This document shows, piece by piece, positions 3,432 through 23,310 of a stretch of DNA of 24,561 nt. Position 1 is the stretch's first letter, and the number at the start of each line of letters is the position of its first letter. A program made the translations under genes and the position numbers. The notes below the pieces were generated by a model. The model was not told the DNA's origin. It worked only from the letters and a program-made list of their open reading frames with translations, and searched no databases. The stretch lies in the IMG/VR virus record IMGVR_UViG_3300017962_001464, positions 1 to 24,561 of that record, one strand, 5' to 3'. Source of the DNA: a virus.

Positions 3432-3909
3432 TCTTTGCCTCCTGAATCAAACGATCAAACACATCAAGTGGCATTTTAATTCGTACATAAGTGTGTACTC
3501 GGCCAGTTGATGACAATTCATATGACATACGTTTAACTTCAAGGTGCTCTCGAATAACAGTATCCTTCACACTGTGTTCAACAATAGTTCTGTCGTATCT
3601 TGCATTACCATTAATGTCTACAGTTGTACTACTGTTTACAGTACCGTTAATACGTTCTGCGAAACCTTTGACTGCAAATGCATAAGCCTGTGCTTCACTT
3701 GCTTGCTCATACATACTTTCGCCCATGCCACACGCATAAGCATAGTCTGTTTTCCAAAATAAGAAACCTTCTGAGCCAATTTGCTCACAGTCGTTATACC
3801 ATTTTGGATTTGCTTTGGTTTCTCGTACTTCAATTGTTTCCATAGTAGAACATGCACCCAAAGTGAGTAACAATGCTCCTGCGGTTAACAATTTAAATGT
3901 GCCTTTCAT
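3394..3909 (-). CDS. LPP20-like lipoprotein
   Basis: 171 residues. The frame also has an ATG 12 nt upstream at 3921, but the only SD (GGAGG) overlaps that codon and sits 5 nt before the ATG at 3909, which fixes the start. The signal has the lipobox TLGAC with Cys at 20. The mature part has NPKWYND, then YACGMGES, then an Ala-rich helix (EQASEAQAYAFAVKGFAERI) and a beta-rich C-terminal half with a TYVRIKM strand. That layout is typical of LPP20/FlgT-like outer-membrane lipoproteins; the family call is by pattern only. A near-perfect sigma70 promoter lies 30 nt upstream. With the next gene it forms a lipoprotein pair that is probably early-expressed. Confidence 0.82.
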   Translation of the reverse strand: MKGTFKLLTAGALLLTLGACSTMETIEVRETKANPKWYNDCEQIGSEGFLFWKTDYAYACGMGESMYEQASEAQAYAFAVKGFAERINGTVNSSTTVDINGNARYDRTIVEHSVKDTVIREHLEVKRMSYELSSTGRVHTYVRIKMPLDVFDRLIQEAKNAEVNTTQLSSN

Positions 3910-3938
3910 ATTTGCCTCCATAAGACGTTAATAGTTAC

Positions 3939-3966
3939 ATTATACATATTTTAGATTAATAGTCAA
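3939..3966 (-). promoter_or_regulatory. sigma70-type promoter for the lipoprotein operon
   Basis: Minus strand: TTGACT (3966-3961), 16-nt spacer, perfect TATAAT (3944-3939), about 30 nt upstream of the LPP20-like gene and just after the stop of the wall hydrolase gene. Confidence 0.75.
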
Positions 3967-3980
3967 TTGTTTTTGGCAAA

Positions 3981-4505
3981 CTACCTTGCCCAACGATAAA
4001 AAATGTGTTCTCCAATAGTTCCTACCAACTGCATATCATCAATCCAATTAGGTTTAACATAATCTGCATGATAGTGAGTTGCACCTTCTGTTAAACCTCT
4101 GTATTGACCGTGATAGATCATAGCATAAGCAATCGTTTGAGCTCGTACCCATGCGTCTTTATTTCTTGGATAATCGCTTCTGCCATCACACCACCAACTG
4201 AATTGACATTGGTTGCGAACAGGTACAAGTACATTTTGATCTTTCCAACTTCTCATATACTTGCCTTGGTGTACTACTTTACAAACCGTATTTGGATAGC
4301 GAGTATCTTCTACACGATTAAGAACAACGTCCGCAACGGCTACTTGATCTGCATAAGAACTGCCCCTGCTTTCAAAATAAATGTTTTGTGCTAAACACCA
4401 AGCCTCAGGCTTGTCCTCGGGTGTAAACAACACACTCATACCGGTTGATGCTTGTGCTGGAGAGAGTGAAAGTACAAGCATGAATGCCAAAATAAATTTT
4501 TTCAT
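3981..4505 (-). CDS. Exported SleB-type cell wall hydrolase
   Basis: Peptidoglycan hydrolase of the SleB/CwlJ (Hydrolase_2) family. The frame is open upstream to 4658, but the start at 4505 is preferred: it follows an AAAGGGA SD, opens a Sec signal (MKKFILAFMLVLSLSPAQA, predicted cleavage after AQA at 19), and begins 16 nt after the upstream stop. The mature domain shows the family signature LAQNIYFESRGSS with the conserved Glu at 45, then QVAVADVVLNRV, a Cys pair around 75-100 and CQFSWWCDG at 100-108. At 174 residues it is a single catalytic domain with no separate binding domain. With its own signal it could reach the periplasm without a holin. It may serve lysis or local wall opening; the family also occurs in tails, but the signal argues against a virion role. 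Confidence 0.88.
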   Translation of the reverse strand: MKKFILAFMLVLSLSPAQASTGMSVLFTPEDKPEAWCLAQNIYFESRGSSYADQVAVADVVLNRVEDTRYPNTVCKVVHQGKYMRSWKDQNVLVPVRNQCQFSWWCDGRSDYPRNKDAWVRAQTIAYAMIYHGQYRGLTEGATHYHADYVKPNWIDDMQLVGTIGEHIFYRWAR

Positions 4506-4521
4506 TTGATTCCCTTTTTGA

Positions 4522-4956
4522 TTAGTTTCGACGCATCTGCGATACTTCAATCGCCTGCTGTCTATTAGTAATTGGCACCAGATTGCTTTTGTGCATAGTT
4601 GCGATGCCTGTGATATAGTCCCCAGTATATTTAGTAGGTTCTTTCTTAGGAGCCACACCTGCTATACCATCACTTAAACTAGGAATATATGGGGTTTCGC
4701 GTACATGACTGTAATCAGGTTTGTAAGGTTTAAACTCTTGATTAGTCTTTTTAGGTTTATGTTCGCCGCGAAGATACGAAAGATACAGTTCGAACGTCTC
4801 GAACTGTGCCGAATGGCAGTTTGCTTTACGCATACGCTTGTTGTATGCTCTCCATTCTGCTTCTAATTTAACTTTTTGATTGTTAGTAAGTTTTTTCTGC
4901 TTACGCTTCTTGTAGTTAGTAGTAGTTAGATACGGTCCTACTAGGTGCATAGTCAT
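4522..4956 (-). CDS. Conserved phage hypothetical, 144 aa
   Basis: Basic soluble protein with a C-terminal block KYTGDYITGIATMHKSNLVP at about 114-133, followed by EVSQMRRN. From memory this block is a hallmark of a widespread small protein of unknown function in marine and other tailed phages. The N-terminus (MHLVGPYLTTT) is also typical. A GCAGGG SD sits 8 nt before the first ATG; a second ATG two codons later is possible. It has its own sigma70-like promoter (4992-5020). A perfect 12-bp inverted repeat has one arm in the promoter spacer and the other over the SD, which suggests control by a repressor or RNA fold. Confidence 0.82.
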   Translation of the reverse strand: MTMHLVGPYLTTTNYKKRKQKKLTNNQKVKLEAEWRAYNKRMRKANCHSAQFETFELYLSYLRGEHKPKKTNQEFKPYKPDYSHVRETPYIPSLSDGIAGVAPKKEPTKYTGDYITGIATMHKSNLVPITNRQQAIEVSQMRRN

Positions 4957-4957
4957 A

Positions 4958-5009
4958 ATAAAACCCTGCCTTTCTTAGTTAATATACTAATACTATAGCA
5001 GGGTTTTAT
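4958..5009. repeat. Perfect 12-bp inverted repeat spanning promoter and SD
   Basis: Arms at 4958-4969 and 4998-5009 are exact reverse complements (ataaaaccctgc and gcagggttttat), separated by 28 bp. On the minus strand one arm fills most of the spacer between -35 and -10 of the promoter for 4522-4956, and the other contains that gene's SD. In read-through RNA from upstream genes the arms could pair and hide the SD or act as a terminator; in DNA they could be two operator half-sites. Confidence 0.75.
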
Positions 5010-5020
5010 CTGTTAGTCAA
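4992..5020 (-). promoter_or_regulatory. sigma70-type promoter for 4522-4956
   Basis: Minus strand: TTGACT (5020-5015), 17-nt spacer, TATAGT (4997-4992), with the start codon 36 nt downstream. The spacer coincides with one arm of the 12-bp inverted repeat. Confidence 0.7.
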
Positions 5021-5034
5021 CTATTTTGGTAAAA

Positions 5035-5304
5035 TTATGCTAAAGCTCTTCTTTTCATAATTTTATATTGTGCGACTGGTCTGCCTGCTCCGAAGTCATT
5101 CGATACAGCATCTACCACTCTCACATCAAAACCAGCTTCTTTAAGATCAAATAGTCTAGCACCTGGTGATGCAATGTCTAAATTGTCTCTTAAATCTTCT
5201 GTTGTAAATGTTTTACCATTACCCCAGTATTTTTGTAAGATCTGTTGGTTTTGAGTTCCTTCTTTAAAGAACTTAGTTCCTACTGCTTTTGTTGCTTTTG
5301 GCAT
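5035..5304 (-). CDS. Small winged-helix DNA-binding-like protein
   Basis: 89 residues. The frame extends to 5343, but the start at 5304 is chosen because AAGGAG lies 7 nt upstream. The middle (LRDNLDIASPGARLFDLKEAGFDV) matches the pattern of phage helix-turn-helix domains in which a recognition helix ASPxARxxDLKxxG is followed by a beta wing. The wing here would be VRVVDAVS and AQYKIMKR. Basic residues at both ends fit nucleic acid binding. It is transcribed from its own sigma70-like promoter (5353-5380), suggesting early expression, and could be a small regulator, possibly of the adjacent inverted-repeat promoter (inference only). Confidence 0.78.
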   Translation of the reverse strand: MPKATKAVGTKFFKEGTQNQQILQKYWGNGKTFTTEDLRDNLDIASPGARLFDLKEAGFDVRVVDAVSNDFGAGRPVAQYKIMKRRALA

Positions 5305-5352
5305 AGTTATACTCCTTATTTTTGTTATTATTAAGTTTAACATATTAACAAC

Positions 5353-5380
5353 AATATAGCATCTTACTATTAAAAGTCAA
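5353..5380 (-). promoter_or_regulatory. sigma70-type promoter for the winged-helix gene
   Basis: Minus strand: TTGACT (5380-5375), 16-nt spacer, TATATT (5358-5353), about 50 nt upstream of the start at 5304 and just after the thermonuclease gene. Confidence 0.65.
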
Positions 5381-5393
5381 GGATTTTGGCTAA

Positions 5394-5876
5394 CTATTTG
5401 TTTTCTTTAGATTCTTTAAGAACTGCGGCATCGTACTCTGCTTGATCTACAACACCTTCACGTAGCAGTTTCTGTCTGTTAGCTTGATGTTTAATTTGAA
5501 TTTCTTCTTTAGATCCGCCAAAATATGCTACACAATGTCCTTCTTCAATAAGAATATCAGTAACTAGTCTGCCGTCTGGAACACGAAAATCTCCTAGGAT
5601 ACGTCCAAACTTGCCCTTCATATCCTCGCCTTTAGCATCTTCAGTAGTAATAAGTTTACCACCTTCATGTAATAATTCTTTTAATCTTTTCTTTGCAGCT
5701 AAACCAAATAGTTTTTCTACATCGTCTGATGTACGGCTTTCTGGTGTGTCAATACCCATAATACGAACACGTTCTTCTTTTAACCATACGCCAAACCCTA
5801 AGTTGATATCTACATCAACTGTATCGCCGTCTACACATTTCAATAGAACAACGTCATATTCATTCTGATGACTCAT
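5394..5876 (-). CDS. Thermonuclease (staphylococcal nuclease family)
   Basis: Ca2+-dependent phosphodiesterase fold of the SNase family, 160 residues. Visible motifs: CVDGDTVDVDI at 14-24 (Asp 18 in the metal site), RVRIMGIDTPES at 36-47 (catalytic Arg 38 and Glu 46, metal-binding Asp 43 and Thr 44), and GKFGRILGDF at 88-97 (second catalytic Arg 92). All catalytic residues of the family are present. There is no signal peptide, so it acts in the cytoplasm, perhaps in host DNA or RNA degradation for nucleotide recycling (inference), in line with guaC and the reductase genes. The SD is GAGAGAGGG just upstream; the gene follows the 47-aa basic peptide gene by 34 nt. Confidence 0.92.
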   Translation of the reverse strand: MSHQNEYDVVLLKCVDGDTVDVDINLGFGVWLKEERVRIMGIDTPESRTSDDVEKLFGLAAKKRLKELLHEGGKLITTEDAKGEDMKGKFGRILGDFRVPDGRLVTDILIEEGHCVAYFGGSKEEIQIKHQANRQKLLREGVVDQAEYDAAVLKESKENK

Positions 5877-6152: not shown

Positions 6153-6752
6153 TTAAAACTTAACTGCAAATGCAACTTGTGCTTCGCGGTCGGTTTTGTT
6201 AAAGTCTGTGTCCATCTTCTGTAACATACCAACTGTTAGAGTTGTGTTTGCTGTCATTGGAACACGTACACCTGCTTTAGCATAACTATCTGCTCTGTTA
6301 AAGTTTAGATAATCGCCTGCAACTGATTTCCAGTCATAACCTAATTCTGCAAAAGGTGTAACACCTGCACCAGTTAGTTCCGCACCAGCGTATGGACTTA
6401 GTCTTAACTCATTTTTAGCAAATGAATCACCCATGTCATAGTGTGCTTCTGCAACACCGTATAGGTTAATATTGCCGAGTGCATAGTCTTCACGTTTAGA
6501 TACGTTAATACGATAATCAACTACATCACCATTTTCAATATATTGAAAACCAGCATTAACTGGGTGTGAAGTAGTGTAAATACCTAATGCTCTAGCATTG
6601 TCTGCAAAGTCACGAGTAGCACCTGTTGAAAGTGATAGTCCAAACTTTTCGCCTTCTGCTGTAATAGAAGCACCAGTTTTATTAAAATCTTCTGCATAAG
6701 CAGAAGTTGAAAGGCCTAATACTAGGGCCATTGTTGCTATTAGCTTTTTCAT
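6153..6752 (-). CDS. Outer-membrane-type beta-barrel protein
   Basis: 199 residues. The frame is open to 6854, but that extension runs through the tmRNA terminator; the start at 6752 follows AAGGA and opens a clear Sec signal (MKKLIATMALVLGLSTSAYA, cleavage before EDF). The mature part of about 180 residues is Gly/Tyr/Asp rich and shows alternating polar/hydrophobic stretches (INLYGVAEAHYDM, RLSPYAGAELTGAGVTPFAEL, SYAKAGVRVPM, TTLTVGMLQ). It ends in Phe (EAQVAFAVKF), the C-terminal signature read by the BAM machinery. It is therefore probably a small outer-membrane barrel. It is bounded by terminators on both sides and follows the tmRNA unit, like a moron gene. Roles could be receptor masking, superinfection exclusion or permeability change (inference). 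Confidence 0.83.
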   Translation of the reverse strand: MKKLIATMALVLGLSTSAYAEDFNKTGASITAEGEKFGLSLSTGATRDFADNARALGIYTTSHPVNAGFQYIENGDVVDYRINVSKREDYALGNINLYGVAEAHYDMGDSFAKNELRLSPYAGAELTGAGVTPFAELGYDWKSVAGDYLNFNRADSYAKAGVRVPMTANTTLTVGMLQKMDTDFNKTDREAQVAFAVKF

Positions 6753-6799
6753 TAAAGTTTCCTTATTATTATTGTTCTCATCGGAACAGCATTTACTTA

Positions 6800-6829
6800 T
6801 AAAAGAAATGCACCCTAAGGTGCATTTCT
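6800..6829 (-). terminator. Rho-independent terminator of the tmRNA unit
   Basis: Minus strand: perfect 11-bp stem AGAAATGCACC/GGTGCATTTCT with a 4-nt loop, followed by TTTTAT. It closes the tmRNA transcript about 40 nt after the tag stop codon and precedes the beta-barrel gene by about 50 nt. Confidence 0.85.
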
Positions 6830-6867
6830 GGCTATTGGGTAACAAGGTGGCCAACCCCGTAGAGCCC

Positions 6868-6897
6868 TTAGGCTGCTAGTGCAAAGTTTTCGTTTGC
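6868..6897 (-). other. tmRNA tag reading frame, ANENFALAA
   Basis: The nine codons run from GCA (6897-6895) to GCC followed by TAA (6870-6868), giving ANENFALAA. The ending (F/Y)ALAA is the ClpXP/ClpAP degradation signal, and ANEN/ANDEN is the SspB-type region in E. coli. The upstream TAAAC just before GCA replaces the E. coli TAGTC. Confidence 0.92.
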
Positions 6898-6982
6898 GTT
6901 TAGTTTGTTTGCTTGATTTACGGTCATCGCCTACCGGTAACTCCACGTTCTCTATTGCATCAGTCGATCCTGGTTCGGCCCC

Positions 6983-7048
6983 ATCATAAACACACTCCTA
7001 GTTTATCAGTCTAGTGCAAGTTGCTATGCTCCTTGCAGAATGTGTTTA
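6983..7048 (-). other. tmRNA intervening segment removed on maturation
   Basis: 66 nt between the encoded CCA of the acceptor half and the 5' GGGG of the coding half. The ends pair as TAAACACA with TGTGTTTA, extending the acceptor helix. Two inner hairpins are visible (TGCAAG/CTTGCA and CTAG/CTAG). In host two-piece tmRNAs such a segment is removed by RNase P and 3' processing nucleases. Confidence 0.8.
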
Positions 7049-7116
7049 TGGTGGAGCCGCCGGGTACTGCCCCCGGGTCCTGTCTACCGTTGATTAGCTT
7101 CAACGTTACGAGTATA

Positions 7117-7145
7117 TTTATAACACCTTTACGAAAAGATGTCAA
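7117..7145 (-). promoter_or_regulatory. Near-consensus sigma70 promoter of the tmRNA
   Basis: Minus strand: perfect TTGACA (7145-7140), 17-nt spacer, TATAAA (7122-7117). The -10 also reads as the late octamer TATAAATA (7122-7115), so the gene might be served by both host-type and late transcription. The expected start is near 7110. Confidence 0.85.
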
Positions 7146-7155
7146 GTTCTTTTTG

Positions 7156-8289
7156 TTATATGTGTTTAAAATACTTGTGATTCTCTATAAAATTTTTATA
7201 ACCTATATTTGACCCGGTTTTAAATTGATTCCATCTATGATCATCAGGCAAGTAAGCCGATAGTTGTTTTACAATGCTAGGCATATATTCATCAAAATAT
7301 ATTAGACTTTTAAGACGTCTTAGATTATGTTTTAATTTTGGTTCTAATATTTTTTTTATTTCATTATAATCTAAATTTAAATTTTGTATTCTAGTGAGTT
7401 CGTTTGCTAGTGCTTCAGCCCTCTCGTTATAGGTAGGTAACGTGTCAAAAGTATAATCAAATAGTTCATCATATAGAACGAATCCAAATTTTTGCAAGTT
7501 TGTCGATGCATATCTAGGTCCGTATATAACAAAAGGTTTTTCAAAAATAATAGGCTGTACTGTTTTTTCTGTATAAAAATCTACAATATTAGATTCTGCT
7601 ACAACATCTATAAAACAGTTTTCATAACCGTTTGGCTGTTTACTCCCAACATGCTCATTCCAAAGGAACCATCGCCGTAATAATATACTATTGCCATCAA
7701 AGTATTTAAAGTTATATGCACTTCTATGGTTATTTGGATCTATAAATGATACTAGATTATTAGTTAATAAGCAACACCTAGAAAACTCATCAATAAGTTT
7801 ACATCTATGTTCCCACGCATGATTAATTTTACAACAAAACAATTTATTCAATGTAGATCTAAAAGGTAATTTGTTATCTCTCATAAAAGACATCGACTGT
7901 CTGTCCCAAACTAAAAAAAATGTAGGCCATGTGTAATAAAAATCTATTACGCTGCCAAACGTATCTAACCAATAGTCAGATGAATTTATTTCTCTATTTT
8001 GTTTTTTGTCTGAAGATCTGCCTGTTATAACACTTACAATGTTATTATTTTTAGCATTATGATTTTTTAATTTAGATAAAATTTCTGTTACTCTATTGGG
8101 ATCTTCGTCGAGCGGTGGATGAGCATGTCCTTCCCATTCAGGCGAACCATCCAAAACTAAGTGTAAATTTTTAGATTTAAATAAAATATCAATCCAGTGT
8201 GCAGCATGAAAGGAGTTGATAGGTTGAGATGATTGATCCCAAATACCGATTATTAAAACATCGTGTGAGCCTATTCTATAAGTATCCAT
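7156..8289 (-). CDS. Putative glycosyltransferase-like protein, 377 aa
   Basis: Soluble alpha/beta protein. The most telling region is CFIDVVAESNIVDFYTEKTV at about 225-244, followed by QPIIFEKPFVIYGPRYASTNLQ. It resembles the C-terminal half of GT10-type fucosyltransferases and related nucleotide-sugar enzymes, where a TEK motif precedes a conserved small/polar turn. Related proteins with TEKTxKPIxxxxPF occur in marine phages, from memory. The N-terminal half is unfamiliar. Composition is clearly more A+T-rich than the neighbours, with many Asn, Lys and Ile codons, suggesting a separate origin. The start overlaps the preceding stop as TAATG with no good SD, so translation is likely coupled. 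The stop lies 11 nt before the tmRNA -35. A role in sugar modification of host surface or phage DNA is inference. Confidence 0.65.
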   Translation of the reverse strand: MDTYRIGSHDVLIIGIWDQSSQPINSFHAAHWIDILFKSKNLHLVLDGSPEWEGHAHPPLDEDPNRVTEILSKLKNHNAKNNNIVSVITGRSSDKKQNREINSSDYWLDTFGSVIDFYYTWPTFFLVWDRQSMSFMRDNKLPFRSTLNKLFCCKINHAWEHRCKLIDEFSRCCLLTNNLVSFIDPNNHRSAYNFKYFDGNSILLRRWFLWNEHVGSKQPNGYENCFIDVVAESNIVDFYTEKTVQPIIFEKPFVIYGPRYASTNLQKFGFVLYDELFDYTFDTLPTYNERAEALANELTRIQNLNLDYNEIKKILEPKLKHNLRRLKSLIYFDEYMPSIVKQLSAYLPDDHRWNQFKTGSNIGYKNFIENHKYFKHI

Positions 8290-8591
8290 TACACAGTGTC
8301 AAGATCTAATTCTTCTTCTTTTGAAAATTTTTCTTGCTTAGGACGAATTGGTTCTAGCCAACTGTCTGCAATGTATGCTCGAGGACTTGGGCCTAATCCT
8401 ATAGTTAGGTCTTCTGCTTCAATCCACCAATAGTGATCTGAAACAGGAGCCATGCACTTCATTCCTCTAAATTGAAATTGTTCACGCTCACTAAACTGTC
8501 CAATGTATTCTGCTACACTTACATAGCGTCCTACGTTTTTATGGTTTAACGAAAACTTAATAACTGCTGTGTCACCTTGTTTACATTTCAT
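8289..8591 (-). CDS. Small SH3-like conserved phage protein, 100 aa
   Basis: It begins MKCKQGDTAVIKFSLNHKNVGRYVSVAEYIG and ends with WWIEAEDL and ADSWLEPIR. That start (GDxAVI...NxGxxVxV) and the D/S-WLxPI ending are, as I recall, the signature of a small beta-barrel protein common in phages of alphaproteobacteria; the function is unknown. Its last residues are acidic. It overlaps the hydrolase gene upstream by ATGA and the glycosyltransferase-like gene downstream by one base, so the three form a coupled operon. Confidence 0.75.
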   Translation of the reverse strand: MKCKQGDTAVIKFSLNHKNVGRYVSVAEYIGQFSEREQFQFRGMKCMAPVSDHYWWIEAEDLTIGLGPSPRAYIADSWLEPIRPKQEKFSKEEELDLDTV

Positions 8592-22434: not shown

Positions 22435-23310
22435 TTATGGCTTGTTTTTGGCTCGTTTATGAGCAATCTTCACCATTTGTGTGTACTGTGGTCCTGCTTT
22501 TACTATATCATCTAGTATTTTAATAGCGGGAGCATAGGCTTTTACTAAGTGTGATGGTATAGTTTCGCCGTTTCTTGCACGTTCTAAAAACTGTTTGATC
22601 AAAGGAATATTAACTCTTTGGTCAGCAAACAAATATTTGTACATGATAAGTCTATTAGCTTCGTCTTTGTCAGACTTGCTTGCAGTGGGTTCGTTATCTT
22701 GTACACCAAAGAGTGTTTCTAAATTTGTATCGGATACAAACTTTTCAAACATAGGATGTAGATCGCTGTTGCGTAGTTTTGCACGTGACGCAAATACTAG
22801 ACGTGTTGTTGCTGCTTTAGCATCAAACGAGCTGAGCTTTTCCCAATTCATAATATCTCTGCGTATTTTACTGTATTCTGAATTGTTTACATGCAGTACA
22901 GATTCCATACTAAGTAAAAAAGATCTATCAGCACTATCCATTGCTCTGCCATATGACATAGCAGTTAAGTATCTGTTAAGTTTAAGTATAGGAATTGCTC
23001 TTCCTTGTCTTAGTAACCAAGCTGCACCCGGATTCTTTAGTCTATCCATTGCTTCTTTATCACCATCAACAAAATAGATGAAGTTGTATAAATCTGTTGC
23101 TGATGGTCTAAAGTATCTATAGTTAGGCCATTGAGTTGTAGCTTTTGCATATCTTATTACATCAGCTTTGTGTGCAGGACTTTTATACATAAGTTCGAGA
23201 ATACAAAGACTTAAAAACAAACGCTCACAAACGTCAGTATATGTAAGCTCTCGTTGATCGTTAGATCCACGAGTCATTCTTGCTTCGTATATCTCTTTAA
23301 TAAAATCCAT
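22435..23310 (-). CDS. Conserved marine-phage late protein, 291 aa
   Basis: Helical soluble protein. ELTYTDVCERLFLSLCILEL at about 21-40, YRYFRPSATDLYNFIYFVDG and LKNPGAAWLLRQ are blocks I recognise from a conserved late protein of T4-like cyanophages and pelagiphages; the function is not known to me. No catalytic motif is evident; the C-terminus is basic (KIAHKRAKNKP). Its start overlaps the stop of the Cys-rich acidic gene as TAATG, so the two are coupled. It belongs to the late operon that enters the window from the right. Confidence 0.78.
   Translation of the reverse strand: MDFIKEIYEARMTRGSNDQRELTYTDVCERLFLSLCILELMYKSPAHKADVIRYAKATTQWPNYRYFRPSATDLYNFIYFVDGDKEAMDRLKNPGAAWLLRQGRAIPILKLNRYLTAMSYGRAMDSADRSFLLSMESVLHVNNSEYSKIRRDIMNWEKLSSFDAKAATTRLVFASRAKLRNSDLHPMFEKFVSDTNLETLFGVQDNEPTASKSDKDEANRLIMYKYLFADQRVNIPLIKQFLERARNGETIPSHLVKAYAPAIKILDDIVKAGPQYTQMVKIAHKRAKNKP

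Follow-up and report, generated by a model that had tools for sequence, protein, structure and literature searches.

Phage tmRNAs pose the question of why a virus should bring its own ribosome-rescue RNA. We addressed it for one locus in a 24.6-kb virus contig of 37.8% G+C (IMG/VR record IMGVR_UViG_3300017962_001464, analysed over all of its 24,561 nucleotides and referred to below as the window), in which an earlier note, made from the letters alone, had described a two-piece tmRNA. On the evidence of sequence comparison, it is very probable that this is a complete two-piece tmRNA gene, resident in the genome of a tailed marine phage, with an alpha-type core and an exchangeable intervening segment, and that its RNA would be processed by the host and be active in ribosome rescue.

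Structure and expression signals of the tmRNA gene

Direct reading, Rfam and ARAGORN all identify the minus strand from 7145 to 6801 as a complete circularly permuted (two-piece) tmRNA gene, arranged 5' to 3' as promoter, acceptor piece, intervening segment, coding piece, pseudoknot region and terminator (Table 1). The acceptor half lies 5' of the coding half and the acceptor stem is built from both, GGGGCCG (6982-6976) pairing with CGGCTCC (7059-7053) at all seven positions, the third pair being the G-U that constitutes the G3-U70 alanine identity pair. Every feature named in the earlier note (acceptor half, encoded CCA, a segment with paired ends, coding half and G-U pair) is present on this strand, and ARAGORN, which calls a permuted tmRNA (tmRNA*) at 7145-6777, returns the identical tag ANENFALAA with a stop codon.

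Table 1. Features of the permuted tmRNA gene in the window, with the evidence for each.
Feature	Positions	Strand	Description and evidence
Promoter	7115..7145	-	TTGACA 7145-7140, 17-nt spacer, TATAAATA 7122-7115; direct reading and conservation in relatives
Acceptor piece	7049..7109 (5' end ~7109)	-	RF04321 match, covariation
Acceptor-piece hairpin	7105-7088	-	
T-arm	7076-7060	-	CCGGG-GGCAGTA-CCCGG
Acceptor 3' strand	7059-7053	-	CGGCTCC
ACCA end	7052-7049 (CCA 7051-7049)	-	Encoded in the DNA
Intervening segment, 66 nt	6983..7048	-	Stem covariation in 14 sequences, fold energy; without open frame
Coding piece	6830..6982 (3' end ~6830)	-	RF04321 and RF01850 alignments, covariation
Acceptor 5' strand	6982-6976	-	GGGGCCG; P2 and hairpin strands also in the coding piece
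Tag frame and stop	6868..6897	-	ANENFALAA, TAA; ARAGORN, frame also in relatives
Terminal pseudoknot region	6867-6830	-	
Rho-independent terminator	6801..6828	-	GAAATGCACC-TTAG-GGTGCATTTC-TTTT; fold, also present in relative L052

A cmscan of the window matched RF04321 (tmRNA_permuted; PMC11915505) over the full model (1-213/213) at 116.6 bits against a gathering threshold of 47 (E 1.7e-22), with no essential difference between the window and this family, whose base pairs span only the tRNA-like domain. The alphaproteobacterial model RF01849 (alpha_tmRNA), which the earlier note had named as a check, scored 99.5 bits, above its cut-off of 50, and RF01850 (beta_tmRNA) scored 94.2 bits, narrowly above its gathering threshold of 84. 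A chance match is excluded by the E-values together with the covariation described below, and at the level of sequence the window is confirmed to carry a genuine permuted tmRNA gene.

That the unit has a promoter and a terminator of its own, as previously proposed, is supported by TTGAC-type and TATAAATA-type boxes lying upstream at 16-18 nt spacing in 21 of 24 phage relatives, and by a terminator stem (6828-6805) that folds at -17.1 kcal/mol with a z-score of -5.9. A generic promoter and terminator scan of the window listed neither the tmRNA promoter nor its terminator; the scan misses this promoter because it accepts only -10 boxes whose sixth base is T. The description of the promoter as host-type holds only in part: the TTGACA-17-TATAAA boxes are present, but the -10 element TATAAATA doubles as a perfect T4-type late-promoter octamer, a suggestion that the promoter may be used late in the manner of T4. 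Occurrences of NATAAATA in the window are divided 12 to 0 between the strands, but these 12 are to be read against 6.4 expected from shuffling. The conserved promoter provides a handle on the timing of tmRNA synthesis.

Phage context, selection and lineage

The window is phage sequence and not a host flank. Consistent with the claim that the tmRNA is phage-borne, the record is a virus record and includes genes for a tail spike, virion proteins, an exonuclease and a ribonucleotide reductase that is 72% identical to the enzyme of T4-like cyanophages. The proteins at 7156-8289 and 22435-23310, used as queries, found no relatives among viral contigs, and relatives were therefore gathered by tmRNA patterns, a T-arm pattern scan returning 45 viral contigs and a tag pattern scan 27. 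The nearest relative, contig L052, clusters with the window with a support of 1.0 in the tmRNA tree, and its tmRNA sits between homologues of window genes 8289-8591 and 6153-6767, with the tmRNA promoter at the end of the upstream gene. Because L052 carries the tmRNA at the same spot, we infer that the gene belongs to this phage locus and was not captured recently; it is a resident phage gene. The window differs from L052 in an extra 377-aa gene (7156-8289, minus strand), which separates the tmRNA promoter from the upstream neighbour and is absent from that place in L052, as if it had been inserted just ahead of that promoter; a second promoter-like TTGACA occurs at 8302, at the junction. The 377-aa product has no Pfam, PHROG or PDB match, and by eye it resembles a viral glycosyltransferase.

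Two-piece tmRNAs in phages are not as rare as the earlier note supposed. Among the 133 unique structures of phage tmRNAs reported by Buchholz et al. (2022; PMC9004378), 53 were two-piece, with a marine or aquatic origin for 50, and a single pattern scan here gave the 45 viral contigs mentioned above; the window adds one more example. The tmRNA of phage Melnitz was described in the same study with alpha affinity. This phage of Methylophilales (OM43; MZ577095-98) and other marine phages share with the window a permuted tmRNA with T-loop GGCAGTA and a tag ending in ALAA, and the Melnitz type also has a TTGACA promoter box followed by TATAAA and no phage SmpB that could be found. Melnitz differs in its longer tag ANDNYVPVDYALAA and 142-nt intervening segment, against the short tag and structured 66-nt segment of the window, and in a glutamine riboswitch (RF01739) match behind its tmRNA, whereas none was found beside the window tmRNA at E-values up to 5. 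In phages DSS3_MAL1 and DSS3P8 the tmRNA is preceded by a GOLLD RNA (RF02032; L004:2393-2856 and L006:1343-1776). Three viral contigs (L056, L063 and L076) carry a one-piece tmRNA with the identical tag ANENFALAA, adjoining tRNA-like sequences. The pattern scan of cellular genome contigs returned loci from other phyla, which were one-piece wherever ARAGORN called them.

An alignment of 17 distinct marine-phage homologues revealed strong conservation of pairing. In the tRNA-like domain 95.5% of cells were paired, with two-sided changes at 17 of 32 pairs compared with a shuffle mean of 9.5, and the acceptor and T stems were 100% paired, with G3-U70 in every homologue (17/17); in controls with slid partners pairing fell to 27-45%. 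In 14 sequences, pairing in the stem closing the intervening segment reached 97%, and 7 of its 12 pairs had changed on both sides. Pairing kept through two-sided changes indicates that selection maintains the tmRNA in phages, and thus that marine phages keep this RNA by selection and not by accidental carriage. Relatives of the window were retrieved by tag pattern, which makes tag identity among them partly circular; loci retrieved by the T-arm alone, and not by tag, nonetheless mostly encode complete ANDN...AA tags, and the intact tag is therefore not a selection artefact.

The proposal that the gene was captured from an alphaproteobacterial host is borne out for its core only. Rfam typing is nearly tied (alpha 99.5 against beta 94.2 bits) and was rejected as an indicator of lineage by itself; the scores are nearly equal because the motifs are mixed, an alpha-type T-loop and GGATCGAC being combined with a beta-type terminal loop. 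As in the alphaproteobacterial two-piece tmRNA (RF01849), the window has the T-arm CCGGG-GGCRGTA-CCCGG, the permuted order and the encoded CCA, and it has GGATCGAC in common with three of five cellular alpha references (L126-L130; copies on plasmid records of Paracoccus, Bosea, Sinorhizobium, Methylobacterium and Pseudorhodobacter). Its T-loop GGCAGTA is of alpha type, all five references having GGCGGTA, yet its RF01849 score is far below the 259-310 bits of four of the five, and its terminal loop is CCTTGTTACC where most of them have CCTGGCAACAGAA. This loop is the same as the terminal pseudoknot loop of the betaproteobacterial two-piece tmRNA (RF01850), the consensus of which carries GGUUCGAUUCC (T-loop) and GGUUUCGAC in place of the alpha-type T-loop and GGATCGAC of the window. 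Sister phages L053-L058 carry the alpha form of the terminal loop, CCTGGCAACAGAA. The gene thus looks like a mosaic of an alpha-type core and a beta-type terminal loop, although convergence may also account for a loop of ten bases. Besides the terminal loop, the presence of the tmRNA at the same locus in L052 speaks against capture as originally described, and the tmRNA tree, which is well supported near the window and weak deeper, supports no ultimate donor. Among close relatives (L053-L058, L066, L071 and L072) the T-arms alternate between alpha-type (GGCRGTA) and canonical-like loops (TTCAATT, TGCGATT).

Proposed ribosome rescue and competing explanations

The sequence predicts a single precursor, begun at the promoter of the gene itself and ended at its terminator. 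As in other members of the family, host RNase P and host 3'-processing enzymes would excise the 66-nt intervening segment, leaving an acceptor piece (~7109-7049) and a coding piece (6982 to ~6830) that, judging from covariation, would be held together by the acceptor and P2 helices. Host AlaRS would charge the RNA via G3-U70, host SmpB would bring it to stalled ribosomes, and ANENFALAA would be added to nascent chains, leading to their degradation and to release of the ribosomes. A search with an SmpB model of 17 viral records, 15 of which have a confirmed tmRNA of this kind, and of five complete phage genomes with such tmRNAs gave no match, the controls being positive. The phage would therefore depend on host SmpB, except if it encodes its own beyond the ends of the 24.6-kb fragment; this agrees with the reliance on host processing suggested in the earlier note. 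We posit that the likeliest benefit to the phage would be continued rescue while infection breaks host mRNAs or halts host ssrA transcription, and rescue capacity during host mRNA destruction appears to be the most economical reading.

The record is a metagenomic contig, and misassembly or host derivation of the window was a caveat raised from the start. It is scarcely credible given the independent contig L052, in which the tmRNA lies between homologous genes, a further contig (L136) with the same neighbourhood, and flanks consisting of phage genes. Mobile elements integrate at tmRNA genes, and the core motifs of the window are host-like, both of which would suit a copy of a host tmRNA gained by imprecise recombination and functionless in the phage; such a passenger is nevertheless very unlikely in view of the extensive compensatory change across phages, the conserved phage-specific promoter, the same locus in L052 and the occurrence in many related phage contigs.

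Two further alternatives assign the RNA another role. In one, the short phage tag might shift the choice of proteins for degradation, or its rate, to the advantage of the phage: ANENFALAA is common to many related phages, the cellular alpha references examined have other tags, and tags vary between phage groups. However, the LAA end is a common degradation signal, many bacteria have the very similar tags ANENYALAA and ANENFALAA in one-piece tmRNAs, so that no special routing is indicated, and the sharing of the tag arises in part from the retrieval of relatives by tag, leaving re-targeting as an improbable explanation. Somewhat less probable still is that the RNA is made and charged but mainly blocks or titrates host SmpB, AlaRS and RNase P. 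Mycobacteriophage DS6A sets a precedent with a tag-less tmRNA-like RNA that was proposed to block or titrate host rescue (PMC4131195), and the phages have no SmpB of their own in the records searched, but a titrating decoy needs no tag, whereas the tag frame here is intact with a typical ALAA end and loci found by T-arm alone have mostly complete tags.

The intervening segment and genes nested within it

We compared 76 distinct tmRNAs of viral contigs and phages, a few of the contigs being possibly host-derived. Their intervening segments measure between 16 and 264 nt, and 26 of the 76 enclose, from start to stop, an open frame of 29 codons or more. The clearest example is a gene for a 62-aa protein, which lies wholly within the segment in 19 fetched contigs (L131-L144, L147, L156, L158, L161 and L163; 15 distinct sequences). 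It has a likely ribosome-binding site, TAAGGA, right after the CCA, its stop TGA, part of TTTATGAT, comes immediately ahead of the coding piece and the predicted RNase P site, and its two ends pair as the closing stem of the segment. With a pN/pS of 0.25, the nested copies are, as far as sequence comparison indicates, under purifying selection. The nested copy was the sole match for the 62-aa protein in each of 11 records searched, and the enclosing tmRNAs score 82.8-113.9 bits with RF04321. The protein family extends to 90 viral contigs; the Melnitz homologue (67% identity) is encoded just upstream of the tmRNA and is not nested, and further contigs have the gene upstream of the tmRNA or have no tmRNA detected nearby. 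One of the enclosing tmRNAs, in L136, has the tag ANENFALAA and falls in the 15-member tmRNA clade of the window (support 0.954), and this contig is syntenic with the window, having neighbouring genes in common. A second, unrelated frame of 54 aa in the segment recurs in nine contigs, and one of 77 aa occurs once.

The 66-nt segment of the window itself contains no open frame. With its flanks it folds at -26.8 kcal/mol (z -5.2) into a 12-bp closing stem that includes the final A of the CCA and two hairpins, the second of which (CTGATAAACT) recurs in L038, L061 and L069. An SD-ATGATG near the end of the segment (frame MMGPNQDRLMQ*) was rejected as coding, as it is not conserved in relatives.

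We are inclined to view the segment of marine-phage permuted tmRNAs as an evolvable cargo slot, in which many relatives, among them L136, hold a whole gene, with its likely ribosome-binding site after the CCA and its end before the predicted RNase P site, and the window a structured RNA. The precursor would then double as mRNA and tmRNA, serving as message before processing, and once the tmRNA is cut out, the message of the nested gene would be either set free or lost. The open-licence PMC literature yielded no paper describing a gene nested within the intervening segment of a tmRNA, and the arrangement is probably undescribed. The nested genes matter more than the tmRNA itself, in that they would be protein genes lodged in the discarded part of a stable-RNA gene, and they allow a direct test of whether one transcript is both message and tmRNA precursor.

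Other unrelated frames of 37-77 aa lie fully inside the segment in L018, L020-L022, L030, L043, L046, L047 and L049, in L014, in L029 and in L159. In L052 (4995-5300), L068 and Melnitz (L002), frames begin in the segment behind an SD-like site and continue in frame into the coding piece, a case weaker than that of the 62-aa gene; the L052 frame, which occurs in one contig only and has no match among phage records, has Cys/His pairs resembling a small zinc ribbon. Just downstream of the tmRNA in L136, a frame at 3454-5580 encodes 708 aa that by eye resemble a catalase-peroxidase (KatG-like).
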